Shown in pieces: positions 9,518 through 21,697 of a DNA stretch of 64,000 nucleotides. Source of the DNA: Candidatus Methylomirabilis sp. (GTDB lineage Bacteria; Muiribacteriota; Ozemobacteria; Ozemobacterales; Ozemobacteraceae); assembly GCA_020722725.1 (NCBI GenBank), contig DYKG01000004.1, forward strand, positions 25,283 to 89,282, in the 5' to 3' direction. The first letter of the stretch is position 1. The number at the start of each line of letters is the position of its first letter. The notes under the pieces are model-generated. The model did no database searches, was not told where the DNA came from, and worked only from the letters and a program-made list of their open reading frames with translations. A program made the position numbers and the translations under genes.

Positions 9518-9555
9518 CATGCAAAAATAGATTCACATAAGGGAAGGTGCTTAAA

Positions 9556-11556
9556 TTGAAAAACAACCGTTGTTTTTTATTCGCTTTGCTTCTTTTCGCC
9601 GTTCTGACAGGCAACCTGGCCGCTCAAACAGAAAAAGATGCGTTGGTTGAAAATACTGTGGCATTGAAAGAGAATACCCAGGCGGTTAAACGACTGACCG
9701 AGATGTTGGAAAAGGGCAATTTCGGCGGGTTTCAAGGCAGTGTGGCTCCGGCTCCCGATCTTTCTGGCGCCAATGTTCAGGCTGATCTTAAACAGATGCT
9801 TGCCGGCTTGAAATGGGAAACCAATGAAGAATACACGGGCATGGGAAGCAAAGAAGCCAAAAAGGGCGGAACCCTGAAATATGTTGAAAGCTCATTCCCT
9901 CCAACCCTTAGAACCTGCGGCAAAAATGCCAATTCAACTTTTGTATCGATGCTTACCGGCCTCTGTTATGAAACCATGCTTGATCTCGACCCGGTTACCC
10001 TTCATTATGCCCCTGCTCTTGCCAAAAAATGGGCGGTTGCCGACGACAAGGTTTCTTTCTTTTTCGAACTCGATGAACGGGCCAAATGGTCAGATGGTCA
10101 GCCGGTGGTGGCCAATGATGTTGTTGCAACCTGGAAACTTTACACCGACCCTGGTATTGAAGACCCTTTTTCAAATGATTATTATGGAAAATACGAAGCT
10201 CCTGTAGCGGTTACCGATCGCATTGTCATGATCAGGGCCAAACAGAAAAACTGGCGTGCTTTTATGTCGGCAGGCTTCATGACCATTCTTCCCGGGCACA
10301 TTATCGGTAAAATCGACGGCAAAAAATATCTCGAACAATATCAGTTCAACATGATGCCCGGATCTGGTCCATATACCTACGAAACATCAAAGGTCAATGA
10401 AGAAATTGTTCTCAGTCGCCGGTCTGATTGGTGGCAGGCCAATCTGCCAAGATCAACCGGCTATTACAATTTCGACAAGCTGCATTTCATTTTTATTGAA
10501 GATGAAAACCTGATCAAAGAAAAATTTAAAAAAGGCGAACTCGACTGGATTTATGTTAACGTTGCCCGCGAATGGCACCAGGACTTCACCCCGGCCTTGA
10601 TGCCCCAGCTTGCCAAAGGTTGGATACAGAAGCGAAAGATTTTTACTCATCGGGCTATCGGCGTTTCAGGCATTGCATACAATATGCGCAAGCCGCCATT
10701 CGATGATATACGAGTCCGCAAAGCAATTGCTCACCTTTATAACCGCGAAAAGATGATGGACAAGCTCTTTTTCAACGAATATGAATATCTCGATTCGTTT
10801 TACCCCAATACCCCTTACGCAAATCCCGAAAATCCCAGGATTCGCTTTGACCCGGATAAAGCGGTAAAATTGCTTGAAGAAGCCGGTTGGCTTCAGAAAA
10901 ATCGCGATTCAGAAGGTTGGCTTACCAAAGATGGCAAAAGGTTTGAACTTAGCCTGAATTATGTTCAGAAAAGCTCAGAGCGTATTATGACCATCTTTCA
11001 GGAAGACCTCAGGGATGTTGGTATAAAGCTGAACCTCAAACAGGTTACCTGGGCCACCGATATCAAGGAAGTGGGAGAGCACAACTTTGAGCTTTCTTCA
11101 CGGGCTTACGGCGGCATTCTGTTTCCCAACCCCGAGAGCTCCTTCCATTCAAAATTCGCTGATCTGCCCAACAATAACAATATCTGGGGTCTTAAAAACG
11201 CCCGCATCGATGAAATCTGCGATGCTTATCCGCTGATGTTCGATGCCGATGAGCGTATCAAAGCAGTTAGAGAAATTGACGGAATCGTATGCCGCGAGCA
11301 TCTTTATGCGCTTGGCTGGTTTGCCGCCCATTCCAGACTTCTGTTCTGGAACAAATTCGGCATGCCCGATTATATTCTTGCCAAAACCAGTGACCAGCGC
11401 AGTCTGGTAAGCCTCTGGTGGCACGACGAAGAAAAGGCAAAAAAACTTGAAGAAGCCAGAGCCAAAGGCCTTGAATTGCCAATCGGCCCTGAAATAGTGC
11501 GCTGGTGGGATGAGCATTTTCCCACAGATCAGACCAAAGCAGGGGAAATGAAGTAA
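9556..11556 (+). CDS. Peptide/oligopeptide ABC transporter substrate-binding protein (SBP family 5)
   Basis: Captures peptides outside the inner membrane and hands them to the permeases encoded next. It has a Sec signal peptide (basic MKNN, hydrophobic core, cleavage near AAQ at about residue 26). A predicted coiled-coil or linker (about residues 28-55) follows, with a two-lobe family 5 domain from about residue 95. Typical blocks are WSDGQPVVANDVVATWKLY, GSGPYTYE and RVRKAIAHLYNREKMM. I chose TTG at 9556, with GGAAGG eight bases upstream, over GTG at 9547. At 666 residues it is longer than OppA because of the N-terminal extension. It is the first gene of the importer operon. Confidence 0.9.
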   Translation: MKNNRCFLFALLLFAVLTGNLAAQTEKDALVENTVALKENTQAVKRLTEMLEKGNFGGFQGSVAPAPDLSGANVQADLKQMLAGLKWETNEEYTGMGSKEAKKGGTLKYVESSFPPTLRTCGKNANSTFVSMLTGLCYETMLDLDPVTLHYAPALAKKWAVADDKVSFFFELDERAKWSDGQPVVANDVVATWKLYTDPGIEDPFSNDYYGKYEAPVAVTDRIVMIRAKQKNWRAFMSAGFMTILPGHIIGKIDGKKYLEQYQFNMMPGSGPYTYETSKVNEEIVLSRRSDWWQANLPRSTGYYNFDKLHFIFIEDENLIKEKFKKGELDWIYVNVAREWHQDFTPALMPQLAKGWIQKRKIFTHRAIGVSGIAYNMRKPPFDDIRVRKAIAHLYNREKMMDKLFFNEYEYLDSFYPNTPYANPENPRIRFDPDKAVKLLEEAGWLQKNRDSEGWLTKDGKRFELSLNYVQKSSERIMTIFQEDLRDVGIKLNLKQVTWATDIKEVGEHNFELSSRAYGGILFPNPESSFHSKFADLPNNNNIWGLKNARIDEICDAYPLMFDADERIKAVREIDGIVCREHLYALGWFAAHSRLLFWNKFGMPDYILAKTSDQRSLVSLWWHDEEKAKKLEEARAKGLELPIGPEIVRWWDEHFPTDQTKAGEMK

Positions 11557-12773
11557 TGTTGAGCTATTTTATCCGCAGATTTCTCTTAATAATTCCAACA
11601 TTCATTGGAATTACTTTTCTTTGTTTTACCGTTACCAGATTTGTGCCCGGTGGCCCGGTTGAGCAGGCGGTGTTGCGGTTTCAACAGGCCGCTGCCCAGG
11701 AAGGCGAGGGTGGGGCGGGCAGCATGGGCTCGCTTGACAAGCGCGGCCAAATTTCCGAAGAAATGATGCAGAAGCTCAAAGAAATTTATGGTTTCGACAA
11801 ACCGTTTTATATTGCCTATGCCCGCTGGTTGTGGCGGGTAATGCATTTTGATCTGGGAGTTTCAGACACCTATTCGCGCCCGGTATGGGATCTGATTAAA
11901 GAAAAGTTTCCCGTATCGATCTGGTTTGGATTAACCGGTTTTCTTCTTTCTTACAGCATTTGTATTCCACTCGGGGTCTGGAAAGCGGTCAAACATGGTT
12001 CGCTATTCGATACCCTGAGCTCGGTTTTTGTGTTTATCGCCTATTCCGTTCCGGGTTGGACTGCCGGGGTGCTTTTACTGATGCTGCTTGGCGGTGGATC
12101 TTTCTGGAACGTTCTGCCTCTGGGTGGAATCGAAAGCACCACGATTACCCATGATTCGATTCTGGTTGGCTACCTGCTTGAAGGCGGCAAGGTTTCAGAC
12201 CTGCCGGCTGAAATTCGTAGTCAGCACCCCAATCTGAAAGATGACCAGTATATTAACTCAAATCACCCGGCTTTTCAGCATCTTCCCCTCGATCGCCGGG
12301 CTCGGCTTGCTACCGGCAGCCATGCAGATCTTACCGGATTCGGACGCTTTCTTGATAAGGCAAAACACATGATTTTGCCGGTTTTCTGTTATGTTCTGGG
12401 TATGTTTGCCTCGATGACGGTTCTGATGAAAAACTCGCTGATGGAAAACCTGGGTCAGGATTACGTTAGAACTGCCTTTGCCAAAGGGCTTTCTGAAAAG
12501 ACGGTAATTTTCAAACATGCCTTAAGAAATTCGCTTATTCCTATCGCCACCGGGCTTGGGCATATGCTTTCTCTGATTCTTGCAGGTTCGTACCTTATCG
12601 AGAAGGTTTTCAATATCAAAGGGTTCGGTTTGCTTGGCTATGAATCGCTGATCGCCCGTGATTACCCGGTAACCCTGGGAATTCTGGTTATCGGCTCGTT
12701 GCTCAAACTTTTCGGCAACATTTTTTCAGACATCCTCTATTGCATAATCGATCCGAGAATAAGGTTTTCATGA
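11556..12773 (+). CDS. Peptide ABC transporter permease, OppB/YejB type
   Basis: A 405-residue inner-membrane permease. MLSYFIRRFLLIIPTFIGIT is the standard first helix of the OppB/DppB group. The ABC-contact (EAA) loop is around FAKGLSEKTVIFKHALRNSL, about residues 307-327, and further helices run to the C-terminus. Two hydrophilic expansions (residues 45-70 and about 205-260) make it longer than OppB, as in the YejB-like subgroup. It overlaps the binding-protein stop by one base (TAATG) and the next permease by four, so expression is tightly coupled. Confidence 0.92.
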   Translation: MLSYFIRRFLLIIPTFIGITFLCFTVTRFVPGGPVEQAVLRFQQAAAQEGEGGAGSMGSLDKRGQISEEMMQKLKEIYGFDKPFYIAYARWLWRVMHFDLGVSDTYSRPVWDLIKEKFPVSIWFGLTGFLLSYSICIPLGVWKAVKHGSLFDTLSSVFVFIAYSVPGWTAGVLLLMLLGGGSFWNVLPLGGIESTTITHDSILVGYLLEGGKVSDLPAEIRSQHPNLKDDQYINSNHPAFQHLPLDRRARLATGSHADLTGFGRFLDKAKHMILPVFCYVLGMFASMTVLMKNSLMENLGQDYVRTAFAKGLSEKTVIFKHALRNSLIPIATGLGHMLSLILAGSYLIEKVFNIKGFGLLGYESLIARDYPVTLGILVIGSLLKLFGNIFSDILYCIIDPRIRFS

Positions 12774-14278
12774 TGATTACTAACTCGATAAAATACTATT
12801 TCGTGCGTCTGCTGGCTTTTCTCGGTTTCTACTGGCTGTTTAACCAGGTTTTGCCCGATTCCGGCAATCCTGCATCAACTGGCGAAAGCATGAGGGGACT
12901 TGCCGGTTTCATTCTGGCGGTTTTTTCGGTTATTTACCTTTTGCCTCTGATTGAATCGGGGTTTGACTCTTTCATAATCTTCTTTGCCAGTCCAATATTC
13001 AAACGGCGCTGGAACAAGTTCAAAAGCATGAAACGTGGCTATTACTCGTTCATTTTTGTAATAACCATATTTGTTTTGTCGTTCTTCAGCGAATTCCTCA
13101 TCAACAGCAATGCTTTGTTCGTTAAATACCAGGGCAAAATTCGTTTCACCCTTTTCAGTTTTGAGAGTGCCCGAACCTTCGGTATGAAAGGTTATGGGGT
13201 GCCCAACTATCGTTTGATGAAACAGGTGTATGCGACACGCAACCAGGAGCGAAAGGATCGTTTAGCTAAAGGTAACGCTACCGATGAAGACAAAAAGTAT
13301 CAGGAATGGGGCGATGACTGGGTGATGCTGCCGTTTTATCCTTATGGCCCGCTTGAATCTCTGCTCGACGAATTGCCATGCCGGCCGCCGCACCCGCCTA
13401 CCTGGGCTGAGAAGGCCTGGCGGCAGGAATTCTTTGATGAAAAACTTTTTGAATTTCCCGCTGAACGGCCAGCCGATGCTGAAATCGAACGAATGTTCGG
13501 ACCTGAAGCATTGAAGCTCGAAGAGATCAAGCTCTACCATAAAATGGCTCTGGCAGGAATGCTCAGCCTCAAGCCCGGTATTGAAAAGCCAGCTGCATTT
13601 CAACACCTGCTTGGCACCGACGACCGCGGTCGCGACGTCTTCGCACGCATGGTTTATGGCTTTAGAACTTCGGTTTCATTTGCTCTGGTCGTAACTTTTT
13701 TCGATTATCTGATTGGCATTACCATCGGCGCCTTGCTTGGCTTTTACGGCGGCAGGTTCGATATGATCATGCAGCGTTTTGTTGAAATCTGGTCAGCAAT
13801 GCCATTCTTGTACACCGTCATGATTTTTGCGGCGATAATGATACCCAATTTCTGGATGCTGGTGGTGATCCTGGTCATGTTCAAATGGATGGGCATGACT
13901 TATTACATTCGCGGCGAATTCCTGCGGGAAAAATCGAAAGATTATGTCGCGGCTGCCCGTGCTATTGGCTGCACCGACGGTGCGATCATTTTCAGACACA
14001 TTCTGCCCAACGCCCTTACTCCGGTAATATCTTTTGCACCGTTTGCCGTGGTGGCAAATGTTGGCTCTCTGGTTTCGCTTGACTTTCTTGGCTTTGGGCT
14101 CCCGGCTCCAACGCCATCCTGGGGCGAATTACTCGGTCAGGGTCTTGGGAATCTGCACAAGGAGTGGCTTATCATGTCGCCGACTCTTGCCATGTTTCTG
14201 ACCCTGCTTCTGGTTTCATTCATCGGTGAAGCGATCCGCGAAGCCTTTGATCCGAAACAGTATTCGAGATTGCGCTAA
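12770..14278 (+). CDS. Peptide ABC transporter permease, OppC/YejE type
   Basis: A 512-residue permease partner. The conserved module is C-terminal (about 280-512): HLLGTDDRGRDVFARMVYG starts it, and the EAA loop AARAIGCTDGAIIFRHILPN contacts the ATPases. The N-terminus has extra transmembrane helices (about residues 10-30, 45-65, 97-117) and a long external region, as in extended YejE-like permeases. The ATG at 12770 overlaps the oppB-type stop (ATGA). SD-driven starts further in are less likely because the first helices would be lost. Confidence 0.92.
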   Translation: MMITNSIKYYFVRLLAFLGFYWLFNQVLPDSGNPASTGESMRGLAGFILAVFSVIYLLPLIESGFDSFIIFFASPIFKRRWNKFKSMKRGYYSFIFVITIFVLSFFSEFLINSNALFVKYQGKIRFTLFSFESARTFGMKGYGVPNYRLMKQVYATRNQERKDRLAKGNATDEDKKYQEWGDDWVMLPFYPYGPLESLLDELPCRPPHPPTWAEKAWRQEFFDEKLFEFPAERPADAEIERMFGPEALKLEEIKLYHKMALAGMLSLKPGIEKPAAFQHLLGTDDRGRDVFARMVYGFRTSVSFALVVTFFDYLIGITIGALLGFYGGRFDMIMQRFVEIWSAMPFLYTVMIFAAIMIPNFWMLVVILVMFKWMGMTYYIRGEFLREKSKDYVAAARAIGCTDGAIIFRHILPNALTPVISFAPFAVVANVGSLVSLDFLGFGLPAPTPSWGELLGQGLGNLHKEWLIMSPTLAMFLTLLLVSFIGEAIREAFDPKQYSRLR

Positions 14279-14289
14279 GGAGCAGAGCC

Positions 14290-15282
14290 ATGGCCAAAGA
14301 ACTGCTGAGTGTTAAAAATTTAAAAACTTATTTTAAAACTGAAGCCGGCATTGCCAAAGCTGTAGATGGCGTCGATTTCAGTATTTACGAAAATGAAGTG
14401 CTTGGGATTGTGGGCGAATCAGGGTCAGGCAAATCGGTTACCTCGCTTTCAATCATGCAGCTCATTCCGAACCCACCGGGCGAAATAGTCGATGGTCAAA
14501 TTGTCTTCGAAGGCAAAGACCTGCTTGCTGCCTATCGGGCAAAAGACTATGATGCGATCAGAAAGATTCGCGGAAACAAAATTTCCATGATTTTTCAGGA
14601 ACCAATGACCAGTCTGAGTCCGGTTTTTACCATTGGATATCAGGTTGCCGAAGCGCTTATTCTTCACCAGGGTCTCGATAAACGTGCTGCCTTCGACCGC
14701 GCCGCTGAAATGCTTGACCTGGTAGGTATTCCATCAGCGCGTGAAAGACTGTTAGAGTATCCCCATCAGTTTTCCGGGGGAATGAGGCAGCGAGTCATGA
14801 TCGCCATGGCACTGGCCTGTAACCCCTCGTTGCTGATAGCCGATGAGCCGACAACTGCGCTCGATGTGACCATTCAAGCCCAGATACTCGAACTGATGCT
14901 TGATGTCAAAAAGAAAACCGCCAATGCTGCAATTCTGCTGATTACCCATGATATGGCGGTGGTCGCCGAAACATGTCAGCGGGTTGTTGTCATGTATTGT
15001 GGTAAAATCCAGGAAATTGCCGATGTTAGAACAATTTTTACCGGGCCGCAGCACCCATATACCCAGGGTCTGCTGGCATCTCTGCCAAAACCCGGGCAGA
15101 AAGTCAAACGTCTTTCAACCATTGATGGCATGGTTCCTTCTTTATTCAATCTTCCAGCCGGTTGCAGTTTCTGCACCCGCTGCCCGAAGAAGATTGATAT
15201 CTGTGAAAATAAGATGCCTGATATGATAGAAGTGGCGCCGGGGCATCTGGTGCGCTGTCACCTCGCTCGGGCAAAAAAATGA
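14290..15282 (+). CDS. Peptide ABC transporter ATP-binding protein, OppD type
   Basis: Powers peptide import as one of two cytoplasmic ATPases. It has Walker A GESGSGKS (about residues 41-48), signature FSGGMRQRV, Walker [13 protein letters not shown] and the switch His in ITHD. The C-terminal oligopeptide-transporter extension carries the Cys pattern CSFCTRCP...C...RCH, which in some family members binds an Fe-S cluster. AAGGAGCAGAGCC is a strong ribosome-binding site. It is the fourth gene of the operon. Confidence 0.93.
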
Positions 15283-15299
15283 AGGGAGTGCAGAAATAA

Positions 15300-16403
15300 A
15301 TGAAACACAAAAACGAAAATGCGAAAACCCTTCTTGAAGTAAAAGATCTGAAAATGTATTTTCCCGTTCTTGGCGGGGTTTTTCGCAGCAAAGTCGCCGA
15401 TGTTAAGGCAATCGACGGCATTTCCTTCACCTTGAAGGAAGGCGAAACTCTTGGCCTGGTCGGCGAATCTGGCTGCGGCAAATCCACTACCGGCAAATGC
15501 ATAATTAATCTCTATCAGCCAACCGCTGGCCAGATTCTTTTCAATTCAAAGTTAACCGGTGAAGTTCCGGTGGTTTCGATTAAAGAGGGTGGAGTGTCGG
15601 TAAAAGTGCCGGCCTTTACTGTCCCGACTCCGCTGACTGTAGATATCGCGCAGCTCGATAACAATCAGATGCGGCCATTTCGCTCTGAAATTCAAATGAT
15701 TTTTCAAGATCCTTATGCCTCGCTGAATCCTCGCATGACGGTCAGTGACATCGTCATGGAACCCATGCATATTCATGAACCTCACCTGTCTGACGGCCAG
15801 AAAAAAGACAAGGTTGCCTGGCTCATGGATAAAGTCGGCCTGAGCGCCGAACAATCTTTGCGTTATCCCCACGAATTTTCCGGCGGCCAGCGCCAGCGCA
15901 TCGGAATTGCCAGGGCTCTGGCCACCAACCCGCGCCTGGTAATCGCCGATGAACCCGTTTCTGCTCTCGATGTGTCGATTCAGGCCCAGGTTATCAACCT
16001 GATGCAGGATCTTCAGGAAGAATTCGGTCTGACCTATATTTTCATCGCCCACGATCTGGCAGTAGTAGGGCATATTTCAGACCGAATTGCCGTCATGTAT
16101 CTGGGTAATATCGTCGAACTGGCTGATTCAGAAGAGTTATTCAACAACCCGCGACACCCTTATACCAGGGCACTGTTATCGGCCATTCCACGCCCTGACC
16201 CTGTAAATCAGCGGGAAAAACGTATCGTTCTCGAAGGTGATGTTCCTACTCCGCTGAGAAAGCCGTCTGGTTGCGGGTTTAGAACCAGGTGCCCGATTGC
16301 CCGGCCTGAATGTGCTCAGCAGGTGCCCCCCATTCTCGAAGTTGGAAAAGGCCATCAGGTTGCCTGTCCTTATCATGATTCTTACAAAACAGACCGGAAT
16401 TGA
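15300..16403 (+). CDS. Peptide ABC transporter ATP-binding protein, OppF type
   Basis: The second ATPase of the importer. It has Walker A GESGCGKS, signature [15 protein letters not shown], Walker [13 protein letters not shown] and switch IAHD. The C-terminal extension has [14 protein letters not shown] and a final CPYH. At 367 residues it is longer than OppF because of an insert between Walker A and the Q-loop (about residues 82-118, Val/Pro-rich), which I cannot explain. It follows oppD-type by 17 bp with a GGAG-containing leader, completing a binding protein, two permeases and two ATPases. Confidence 0.92.
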
Positions 16404-16436
16404 GAGTGCCGTGTGTGGCACCGAAAGGGGTTCTGC

Positions 16437-17237
16437 ATGAAAAAACCGCTGATTATGGTTCTGATCGTTTTCGTTTTCTGCTCTCGTCTAACGGCTTCAC
16501 AATCACAGGATAATGCCGATCCGGTAAGTGTAACCCTCGGGGAAATAAATGAGGAACCCGCTAATGATCAGGGCTTTGCTGCTGACGCAGCACAACCTGA
16601 TGATTCAGTTGCTCAACCCAGTTACCCAGTCGGCCTGACCGAAGAAAACGAATATTTGATTTACGCCCCGGAAGGACTTTCAACCGCAAAAACTTACCCG
16701 TTGCTTGTAACCTTCTCTCCTGGAGCCAATGGTCATGGCTTGATAAAAGAATGGCAAGATCTTGCCGACAAGCATCAATGCATTCTTTTTGCCTCAAAAA
16801 TTGTGCGCAATGGTATGAATCCACCGCCTTACCTTGAACGCCTGGTAAAGATAATCAAAGAAAAGATTGCCGCCGAATACCCGATTAAAACCAATTGCAT
16901 CATTGCAGCCGGAACATCGGGTGGAGGAATGACCGCCCATCTGTTTTCTTTTTTGCAGCCCGAAACGGTTGCAGGTGTTATTACCAGCGTCGGCTACATT
17001 CATGAAAACAGTTTGAAACAGTCTGAGCATTACCCCGGAAACAAGGCCTGCGTTTTTCTGACCAGCCCCACCGATTTCAATTACAAGCTGATGAAAGAAG
17101 ATGTACGGTTCTTGAAAAAACATGACTGGAATACCCTTTGGCTTGAATTCGAAGGCGGGCATCGAACCGGCCCGTTGGAATTGCGCGATGAAGCTCTGGG
17201 ATGGATTTTACAGCAACCTGAAATTACCGATAAGTAG
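16437..17237 (+). CDS. Secreted alpha/beta-hydrolase, esterase-like
   Basis: A 266-residue exported hydrolase. A Sec signal (MKKPLIMVLIVFVFCSRLTAS) is followed by a disordered acidic linker (about 20-60). The alpha/beta-hydrolase domain opens with YLIYAPEGLSTAKTYPLLV; the likely nucleophile is the Ser in AAGTSGGGM and the likely catalytic His is in EGGHRTGP. This resembles feruloyl-esterase/PHB-depolymerase-like or phospholipase/carboxylesterase relatives, but the substrate is not evident. The ATG at 16437 has AAAGGGG six bases before it; the in-frame TTG/GTG starts upstream lack one. It lies between the importer and a GH31 glycosidase. Confidence 0.7.
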   Translation: MKKPLIMVLIVFVFCSRLTASQSQDNADPVSVTLGEINEEPANDQGFAADAAQPDDSVAQPSYPVGLTEENEYLIYAPEGLSTAKTYPLLVTFSPGANGHGLIKEWQDLADKHQCILFASKIVRNGMNPPPYLERLVKIIKEKIAAEYPIKTNCIIAAGTSGGGMTAHLFSFLQPETVAGVITSVGYIHENSLKQSEHYPGNKACVFLTSPTDFNYKLMKEDVRFLKKHDWNTLWLEFEGGHRTGPLELRDEALGWILQQPEITDK

Positions 17238-19414: not shown

Positions 19415-19888
19415 TCAGGCTGGCGAGCTAACCTGCTCCTGCATACCTTGCTGGAAAGAATTCCATTTTGAGTATAGAAACATCTGAACTTCCAGTCTTG
19501 CCTCATTTCCTTCCAGATTTTTATTTGGGCAATAAGAATGTATCAGTTGTTTGTAATCGATGGTAACCTGGTGATCGACTTCGGCATTCAAAAAAGAATT
19601 GGCAATGATAACCGGTTCAATTATGTTGGCATAATTTCGACAGCTCAGATTGTGGTGTTCACGGGCACAGTCAAGCAGATAGGCCGGCAACCCCCACTCC
19701 AGACAAAGCCTTGAGCCGATTTCGCAATGATCCAGGCTAAAATAGCGGCGCTCAGCTTCAATAATCGAAACTTTCCGGGTTTTTTGAAAATTTACCACCT
19801 TTTTGTATTCTTCGGGAAAGCAGAACTGCACCGCAAGCGCTCCGATGTCGTGTAGCAGGCCGGCAACTTGCAAGTATAGTACAATCAC
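19415..19888 (-). pseudogene. 5'-truncated HDOD/HD-domain gene fragment
   Basis: The frame starts inside a conserved HDOD block: AGLLHDIGALA, then a Phe-Pro-x-x-Tyr segment, DHCEIGSRLCLEWGLP and an REHH motif. In intact HDOD proteins about 100 residues precede this block; here they are missing. The apparent GTG start falls within promoter-like DNA (19873-19901) with no ribosome-binding site. The likely history is a deletion that joined the promoter to the middle of the gene. The remaining 157 codons are open, so loss may be recent or a short product may still be made. Confidence 0.65.
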
Positions 19889-19998: not shown

Positions 19999-20378
19999 AT
20001 GAAAAACTTTCTTTTCTCTATTTGGCAGAACCAAAAAATTAAAACGATCATTTTTATTTTGTTATTGATTGTGATGGTTGCAATGCCTGTCAATGCGCAA
20101 AAGCCGGTAGAAAAAGTTGAGGTCGGACTTTATCTGCTTGATATTGCGCACCTCAATGTAAAAGAAAGTGAAATTTTCGCCGACCTCTGTATCGGGTACA
20201 AGGTCGCCAAAGTTCATTTTGCTGCTGATAATCATTGCCGGGATGGCGTATATGGTTTTCTTTATCAACTGCAAAAAAGAAGCGCATCGATATTGCAATA
20301 AAGCTTGGTGACTTCTTTAAAGTCGCTTATGTGGTGATTTTGGTAATTGGCGCAATAATGATTTATGGATTCAGCTAA
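19999..20378 (+). pseudogene. Remnant of a pentameric ligand-gated ion channel (Cys-loop family)
   Basis: Three pieces in three frames. Frame 1 from 19999 gives a signal peptide and the first strand of a channel ligand-binding domain (KVEVGLYLLDIAHLNVKES, then IFADL). Frame 2 (about 20203-20270) gives a hydrophobic helix resembling M3. Frame 3 (about 20273-20378) gives KKRIDIAIKLGDFFKVAY followed by a last helix ending IYGFS and a stop, the layout of M4 at the C-terminus of these channels. Most of the ligand-binding domain, M1 and M2 are gone. Intact prokaryotic channels are about 320 residues. The family assignment rests on short motifs. Confidence 0.5.
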
Positions 20379-20387
20379 GGAGCAGAT

Positions 20388-21209
20388 ATGAAGCCGCTTT
20401 TTGATGTTAAAGGAAAAATCACTTTTCCCGCACTGCTTGGTATGGTTCACGTAAAAGCCCTGCCAGGCACCCCTTTTTGTAATGAGAATATTTGCAAAGT
20501 TGTTGAAACAGCGGTTCAAGAAGCCGAGCTTTATCAGATTGCCGGGTTTGATGGAATAGTTATTGAGAATATGCATGATCGGCCATATTTAAAAGGCCAT
20601 GTCGGCCCCGAAATTGTGGCAGGAATGACCAGAGCCGCGGTTGAAATCAGGAGAAAAGTCGGTCAGAAATTTCCTGTGGGTGTTCAGATTCTTGCCGGTG
20701 CCAACATCGAGGCTCTGGCGGTGGCGCATCTGTCTGGCTGTGATTTCATCAGAGCAGAAGGCTGCGTTTTTGCCCATGTGGCTGATGAAGGCCTGATTGA
20801 AGCCTGTGCCGGCCAACTGCTGCGCGAGCGCTCCAGAATTGGTGCCGAACGAGTGAGAATCTGGACTGATATTCAGAAAAAACATTCTGCCCACGCCATA
20901 ACTGCAGATCTAGACCTTGAAGACTGGGTTCATGGTGCCGAGTTTTTTGGAATCGATGGCGTAATCATCACCGGGTCAGCAACCGGAAAGTCAGCCAGCC
21001 CCGAGGAAGTTATCAGAGCCAGAAGCGCCAGTCGCCTCCCTGTTATTGTCGGTTCTGGAATAACTGCAGAAAATGCCGGCGAATATGCAAAAGCAGATGC
21101 CTGGATCATTGGTTCAAGCATGAAATATGATGGTTTCTGGGAAAACCCCATCGACCCTGATCGCTTGAAAAAAATGGTCGCCTCCCGTGACCGGGTTGCA
21201 AGAAAGTAA
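20388..21209 (+). CDS. BtpA/SgcQ-family TIM-barrel protein
   Basis: A 273-residue protein whose blocks match the BtpA family: LLGMVHVKALPGTP at the N-terminus, then GFDGIVIENMHDRPY, GVQILAGANIEALAVA, DFIRAEGCVFAHVADEGL and a C-terminal PVIVGSGITAENAGEY phosphate-binding-like loop. BtpA affects photosystem I assembly in cyanobacteria, but most homologues are of unknown function and may be sugar-phosphate enzymes. AAGGAG five bases before the ATG gives a strong start. It lies directly after the channel remnant and may once have been co-transcribed with it. Confidence 0.85.
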   Translation: MKPLFDVKGKITFPALLGMVHVKALPGTPFCNENICKVVETAVQEAELYQIAGFDGIVIENMHDRPYLKGHVGPEIVAGMTRAAVEIRRKVGQKFPVGVQILAGANIEALAVAHLSGCDFIRAEGCVFAHVADEGLIEACAGQLLRERSRIGAERVRIWTDIQKKHSAHAITADLDLEDWVHGAEFFGIDGVIITGSATGKSASPEEVIRARSASRLPVIVGSGITAENAGEYAKADAWIIGSSMKYDGFWENPIDPDRLKKMVASRDRVARK

Positions 21210-21277
21210 GCGTATTTACTTGCGTTGTACCGATGCTTCGGCCACATTAATGTTGAAATCAAACCGGAAGGTTGTTT

Positions 21278-21697
21278 ATGAAAAACAGTCTCGACCAGAT
21301 TCGCAAACATCTGAAAATTATCGATCTCATTGAAGACCGTTTCAAAATCAAGCCCAACAACGATGTAGATGACCCACTGCTTTATTGTGGGGTTGCCAAT
21401 TCCAACATTATCGAAGAGCTGGCTGTTGAAGTGGAAAAAATCTTTGGGCCGCCTTACAAACCGGCTGGCGAAGGCGCCTTTTTCAAAAATTTCTTTGATA
21501 AATTTGTGCGCGAAGTTGGTGGTGCCAGAAAAGAACAAACCCTTTATCGACTGGTGGTTGATGATGTTACCTGCCTTTACTGTGCGTTCTGGCCATGGGG
21601 CTCTAACCCCGTGAAAACTTCAGTGCGTATCGGTCTGGTCTGTTATGGCGCCGATGAGCGAGAGATGTATGCCAAAGAGCTCAAAGGTGAACTCTGA
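21278..21697 (+). CDS. Hypothetical soluble protein
   Basis: A 139-residue protein with an amphipathic N-terminal helix and an alpha/beta C-terminal half (VVDDVTCLYCAFWPWGSNP). There is no signal peptide or membrane helix. I chose the ATG at 21278, six bases after GGAAGG, over a TTG at 21272. Its 3' end overlaps, on the opposite strand, the end of the amylase remnant. I recognise no family. Confidence 0.6.
   Translation: MKNSLDQIRKHLKIIDLIEDRFKIKPNNDVDDPLLYCGVANSNIIEELAVEVEKIFGPPYKPAGEGAFFKNFFDKFVREVGGARKEQTLYRLVVDDVTCLYCAFWPWGSNPVKTSVRIGLVCYGADEREMYAKELKGEL

Follow-up and report, generated by a model that had tools for sequence, protein, structure and literature searches.

Immediately upstream of an intact btpA gene in the window (the whole stretch of 64,000 nucleotides analysed here), 380 bases of the forward strand, 19999-20378, encode three short peptides that resemble parts of a pentameric ligand-gated ion channel (pLGIC). 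Are these the remains of a channel gene and, if so, which kind of channel was it and how was it lost? The first-pass annotation had taken the segment for the fossil of such a channel, with a signal peptide and first ligand-binding strand, an M3-like helix and an M4-like C-terminus in three frames. The features concerned are as follows.

19999..20202, plus strand: N-terminal remnant (piece 1), a signal-peptide-like segment and strands 1-2 of the ligand-binding domain, in frame 1 with its ATG at 19999
20203..20209, plus strand: deletion junction 1; profile positions 63-206 (most of the ligand-binding domain) are gone and the frame shifts
20210..20269, plus strand: M1 helix remnant (piece 2), KFILLLIIIAGMAYMVFFIN, in frame 2, profile positions 207-229
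20270..20270, plus strand: deletion junction 2, approximate; profile positions ~230-287 (M2-M3) are gone and the frame shifts
20271..20378, plus strand: M4 helix remnant (piece 3), AKKKRIDIAIKLGDFFKVAYVVILVIGAIMIYGFS, with the native stop, in frame 3 (coding part 20271-20375, TAA 20376-20378)
20376..20382, plus strand: TAAGGAG, the channel stop overlapping the likely Shine-Dalgarno sequence of btpA, retained
20388..21209, plus strand: btpA, intact (PF03437, E 4e-62), 74-76% identical to the five btpA proteins of the related genus g4
21272..21697, plus strand: 141-aa ORF following btpA, with 72-76% identity to its counterparts at loci L040-L044 (5/5)

A profile, A1, was built from six intact relatives, five from g4 of Ca. 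Riflebacteria and one from g8, and scanned against the 2370 six-frame peptides of the window with a length of at least 15 aa. Piece 1 matched profile positions 9-62 of 323 (45.8 bits, E 2.7e-13), piece 2 positions 207-229 (32.0 bits, E 7.1e-9) and piece 3 positions 288-323 (27.7 bits, E 1.4e-7), while the fourth-best of the 2370 peptides was found at E 0.5. When the 380 bases were shuffled 1000 times with dinucleotides preserved, no piece exceeded 8.8 bits and no third-best piece exceeded 0.8 bits. All three peptides, one per forward frame, are thus recognized as channel-derived and are collinear with an intact channel. Piece 1 shares 36-49% blastp identity with the six intact relatives, and piece 2 shares 70-83% over 23 aa. 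The helix in the middle had been read as M3; its alignment to profile positions 207-229, right after the ligand-binding domain, rules this out and identifies it as M1, so that this element of the first description had to be changed and the two outer ones were kept. The M1 remnant carries the substitution P213L at a proline that is invariant in the six relatives.

When the pieces were searched alone against Pfam, no channel family was matched up to E 10, which makes Pfam too weak a test for isolated pieces. The search against Neur_chan_LBD and Neur_chan_memb that had been suggested for them was informative with the intact relatives, all six of which matched Neur_chan_memb (PF02932; best 5e-10, one member at 35.8 bits, above the cut-off of 28.1) and, at E up to 1, Neur_chan_LBD (PF02931; best 1.3e-5, one member at 25.2 bits, just below the curated cut-off of 26). 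Against the PDB, profile A1 matched 273 distinct sequences at E up to 0.01, with a GLIC/GABA-A alpha1 chimera on top (1.6e-20) and GLIC itself (3eam) at 9.3e-18. An AlphaFold monomer model derived from eight intact proteins, of moderate confidence given its mean pLDDT of 79 and pTM of 0.58, matched GLIC over the full length (E 2.4e-19, probability 1.00, TM-score 0.64) and contains four long helices (H203-226, H232-256, H260-292 and H296-324). Because the intact proteins agree in their Pfam, PDB profile and fold matches, the ancestral gene is, as judged from sequence and predicted structure, a prokaryotic pLGIC of the Cys-less, "Pro-loop" type.

Several details of the intact proteins are in keeping with this assignment. 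Residues Y116 P117 F118 D119 are invariant in the six relatives and aligned to the YPFD/FPFD of PDB chains, a site which we take to be the Pro-loop between strands 6 and 7. In ungapped alignments of M2 with the GLIC/GABA-A chimeras, the intact proteins have a Leu, a Glu in place of Pro and a Gln in place of Arg, presumably at positions 9', -2' and 0', respectively. By analogy, the Glu at -2' suggests that the ancestral channel was cation-selective, and the protein may be pictured as a homopentameric, probably cation-selective membrane sensor. GLIC, the proton-gated pLGIC of Gloeobacter violaceus (glr4197), has the same architecture as the intact orthologues, a ligand-binding domain followed by four helices, and like them has no long M3-M4 loop; it differs in sequence, with ~19% identity in the fold alignment, and the window copy itself is broken.

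If the pieces derive from such a gene, related genomes could still hold it next to btpA, as the first-pass annotation had anticipated. This was indeed observed: five g4 genomes carry an intact pLGIC of ~325 aa immediately upstream of btpA and in the same orientation, and together with the A1 matches they bear out the reading of the segment as a pLGIC fossil. A search of 95 genomes with the frame-1 ORF gave matches at E 1e-5 or better in nine genomes besides its own, these five g4 genomes included, and every such match lies within a long open frame. The btpA gene is present in 19 of the 24 genomes of the taxonomic family, the window's own included; at the other 18 loci, for which flanks of ~1.5 kb (some shorter, with one btpA partial) were inspected, a channel adjoins btpA in 5, all from g4, and not in 13. 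A sixth g4 genome, G021 (75% complete), yielded neither btpA nor a channel. At the g4 loci L040-L044 the order channel, btpA, 141-aa ORF is kept in 5/5, and four of the five are recorded under the names Ca. Riflebacteria or Ca. Rifleibacterium amylolyticum CH46. At the remaining one, L044 (SABV01000137.1), the same block stands under the label "Erysipelotrichia bacterium", which looks like a misclassification.

Across the phylum, A1 matched 21 of 39 genomes, the window's own by its three fragments only. Channels are thus not rare in this phylum, a correction to the earlier remark that prokaryotic members are uncommon. Among the 31 A1 matches listed in the phylum, none has internal stops. A weak match with stops in G013 (L012, E 0.02) was not accepted as a second pseudogene. 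No second channel copy was found with A1 in the window's genome, a draft of 89 contigs and 91% completeness; A1 was used for this search, the PF02931 search there having matched no control genome. In a tree of 18 of the 19 btpA rows (the partial btpA of G005 was omitted), the branching of the window relative to g4, g6 and g11 was left undecided, and what ties the window to g4 is therefore the btpA identity together with the gene order that they have in common.

The junction with btpA is conserved as well. The end of the channel before btpA, TTCAGCTAAGGAG, is the same in the window, G004 and G011, and TAAGGAG precedes btpA in G004, G011 and G016, with TGAGGAG in G022. Since this string is conserved before btpA, the channel stop overlaps the likely ribosome-binding site of the downstream gene, and it is plausible that the 3' end of the channel was kept, stop included, because that site lies there. 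The ancestral channel would probably have been expressed from the operon of btpA.

What is missing from the window copy argues most directly for a pseudogene. Of the 323 profile positions, 113 survive, and these are divided among different frames. Neither M2 nor M3 is left, nor is the greater part of the ligand-binding domain, and no single open frame connects the three remaining pieces, as would be needed for a working channel. The order is that of a channel with its middle removed, as first described, with the difference that there are two separate gaps: since each changes the frame, at least two deletions must have occurred, one that took most of the ligand-binding domain and another that took the pore helix M2 together with M3. 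With two frame-changing internal deletions, no channel can be made. The relatives are too divergent for the exact break points and any microhomology to be settled.

Substitutions tell a milder story. At 8 of the 36 positions that are invariant in the six intact proteins the remnant is altered, including the M1 proline and the strand-2 Trp, compared with 0-2 of 36-38 positions when each of the five g4 proteins was left out in turn. However, among the 57 positions that do not vary within g4, 15 are altered in the remnant and 21 in L007, an intact but more distant protein, so that the argument from substitutions is weak when taken alone. Over 85 residues, the remnant shares 51-56 with g4 proteins, and the G022 channel shares 64-69 with those of the other four g4 genomes; the corresponding btpA identities lie close together, at 74-76% for the window against g4 and 77-79% for G022 against the other four. 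In strands 1-2, dN to four g4 genomes is 0.17-0.22, and for btpA it is 0.19-0.21 (dS is saturated over the 32 codons compared, so dN alone was used). Because dN in the first strands resembles that of btpA, decay by substitution is modest there. Taken together, these figures are compatible with a modest relaxation of constraint and with a channel that was lost fairly recently. It is the deletions, not the substitutions, that are the real proof of a pseudogene.

The wider neighbourhood bears traces of the same process. Upstream of the remnant lie the following features.

9547..17237, plus strand: oligopeptide-type ABC transporter (SBP_bac_5, two permeases, two ATPases; by Pfam) and a hydrolase-like gene
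19415..19888, minus strand: 5'-truncated HDOD gene, matching residues 242-385 of a 386-aa homologue in G001

Homologues of the transporter and hydrolase genes precede the channel in G004, G011 and G016, within the limits set by flanks of 6 kb. G016 and G011 have the order oligopeptide-type transporter genes, hydrolase, channel, btpA, 141-aa ORF; in G004, ~2.5 kb and an extra ORF (sensor-kinase-like by eye) separate hydrolase and channel. The G022 contig begins at the channel, and in G023 the 3.6 kb upstream contain neither transporter nor hydrolase; both keep the channel-btpA-141-aa ORF block. The window retains the order of G016 and G011, with a GH31 gene and the truncated HDOD gene placed before the channel remnant. 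The HDOD remnant covers positions 123-195 of the 196-position HDOD profile, and apart from the G001 homologue nothing matched it better than E 0.068. G001, which belongs to the window's genus and is 84% complete, shows transporter, hydrolase, GH31 and a full-length HDOD gene (386 aa), after which another gene follows; a channel and btpA were both looked for in this genome and not found. A truncated HDOD gene beside a gutted channel implies several deletions between GH31 and btpA. The hydrolase-like protein itself (16413-17237, plus strand; so named by eye) is conserved and has no Pfam match at 0.001; its gene lies in synteny with the transporter genes both in G001 and in three genomes of g4.

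We then asked whether the locus could be accounted for in another way. The frame-1 ORF, 100 aa from 19999, is open, starts at an ATG, carries a signal-like segment and, judged by dN, has two strands conserved to the same degree as btpA; it might thus be a new short secreted or membrane-anchored protein that incorporates an old receptor fragment, the rest being debris. Yet no significant short homologue was found in the other 94 of the 95 genomes (the best match in a short frame, 96 aa in G079, was dismissed, at E 0.017 and aligned over the hydrophobic start only), and a collection of plasmids searched at E up to 1 yielded none. The first-pass annotation had named two observations that would overturn the fossil, such short relatives or a lack of channel hits for every piece, and neither was made. 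In addition, the ORF terminates in frame-shifted M1/M4 sequence, has lost F57, Y58 and W60, which are invariant in the six intact relatives, and comprises two strands of a ligand-binding domain, which are not expected to fold by themselves. Its ATG has no clear Shine-Dalgarno sequence by eye, though the intact g4 genes likewise lack one. We consider a functional short protein very improbable. In a draft genome of 89 contigs and 91% completeness, the living cell could also hold an intact gene that was collapsed locally or lies in an unassembled part, but a collapse would create neither two deletions nor substitutions of invariant residues such as P213L in M1, the adjoining HDOD gene is truncated too, and the same-genus genome G001 (84% complete) is also without a detected channel. 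An assembly artefact is accordingly regarded as exceedingly improbable.

We conclude that 19999-20378 is almost certainly a pseudogene of a pLGIC whose gene directly preceded btpA in an ancestor shared with g4 of Ca. Riflebacteria; this status and the two deletions are shown by sequence and synteny. Most likely, the pseudogene was left by the loss of a sensor channel that was dispensable. A more ambitious proposal, which we regard as rather unlikely, is that Riflebacteria possess an undescribed unit in which a GLIC-like channel, its stop overlapping the btpA ribosome site, lies 3' of an oligopeptide-type ABC transporter and senses a substrate handled by both the transporter and BtpA; the window would then have lost the sensor and kept the enzyme.

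What the window holds is a commonplace pseudogene from a family already known, produced by an ordinary process, and it had been recognized correctly from the raw sequence. The literature already covers the channel family, a distribution marked by frequent loss and the fusions with Cache domains, as the available excerpts of PMC549065 and PMC4795631 make clear. In those of Tasneem et al. (PMC549065), bacterial ART-LGICs are described with receptor genes near PBP-II genes, Cache-domain fusions and frequent loss. The PBP-II neighbourhoods are resembled here by the oligopeptide-type solute-binding protein and transporter upstream, and the Cache fusions are paralleled by Riflebacteria proteins that join Cache-like and channel-like parts; these excerpts mention neither Riflebacteria nor btpA, and the window copy is a visibly decayed gene instead of an inferred absence. 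Similarly, in the excerpts of Jaiteh et al. (PMC4795631), Pro-loop receptors have a sparse distribution and a high loss rate, with losses inferred from distribution. A point in common is the Tyr-Pro-Phe-Asp motif at the presumed Pro-loop, invariant in our six intact relatives. A point of difference is the presumed M2 0' position, which by the ungapped alignments is Gln in the Riflebacteria channels and not Arg/Lys.

In a library of open-licence papers we found no report of pLGICs or ion channels in Riflebacteria and, in those parts of it on ligand-gated channels and pseudogenes that were available, no mention of bacterial pLGIC remnants. While pLGIC loss is usually inferred from a patchy distribution (PMC4795631, from the same excerpts), its remains are directly visible here as an intermediate, with the channel intact in g4, gutted in the window and not found in the same-genus G001. 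Views on how pLGICs work are left unchanged; the btpA-linked Riflebacteria channel could supply new GLIC-like proteins for study.

Several additional, divergent pLGIC-like proteins (L058-L066, L075 and L077) were seen in other Riflebacteria genera, two or three of them in some genomes. L072, L073 and L074 are single open frames of 596-680 aa in which an N-terminal Cache-like stretch (PF02743, E 1.2e-11 to 1.7e-6; L074 at the curated cut-off, L072 and L073 below it) is followed by a channel-like stretch matching A1 at E 7.6e-15 to 2.7e-10. L067 and L068 (594 aa) also match A1, with zero Pfam families.
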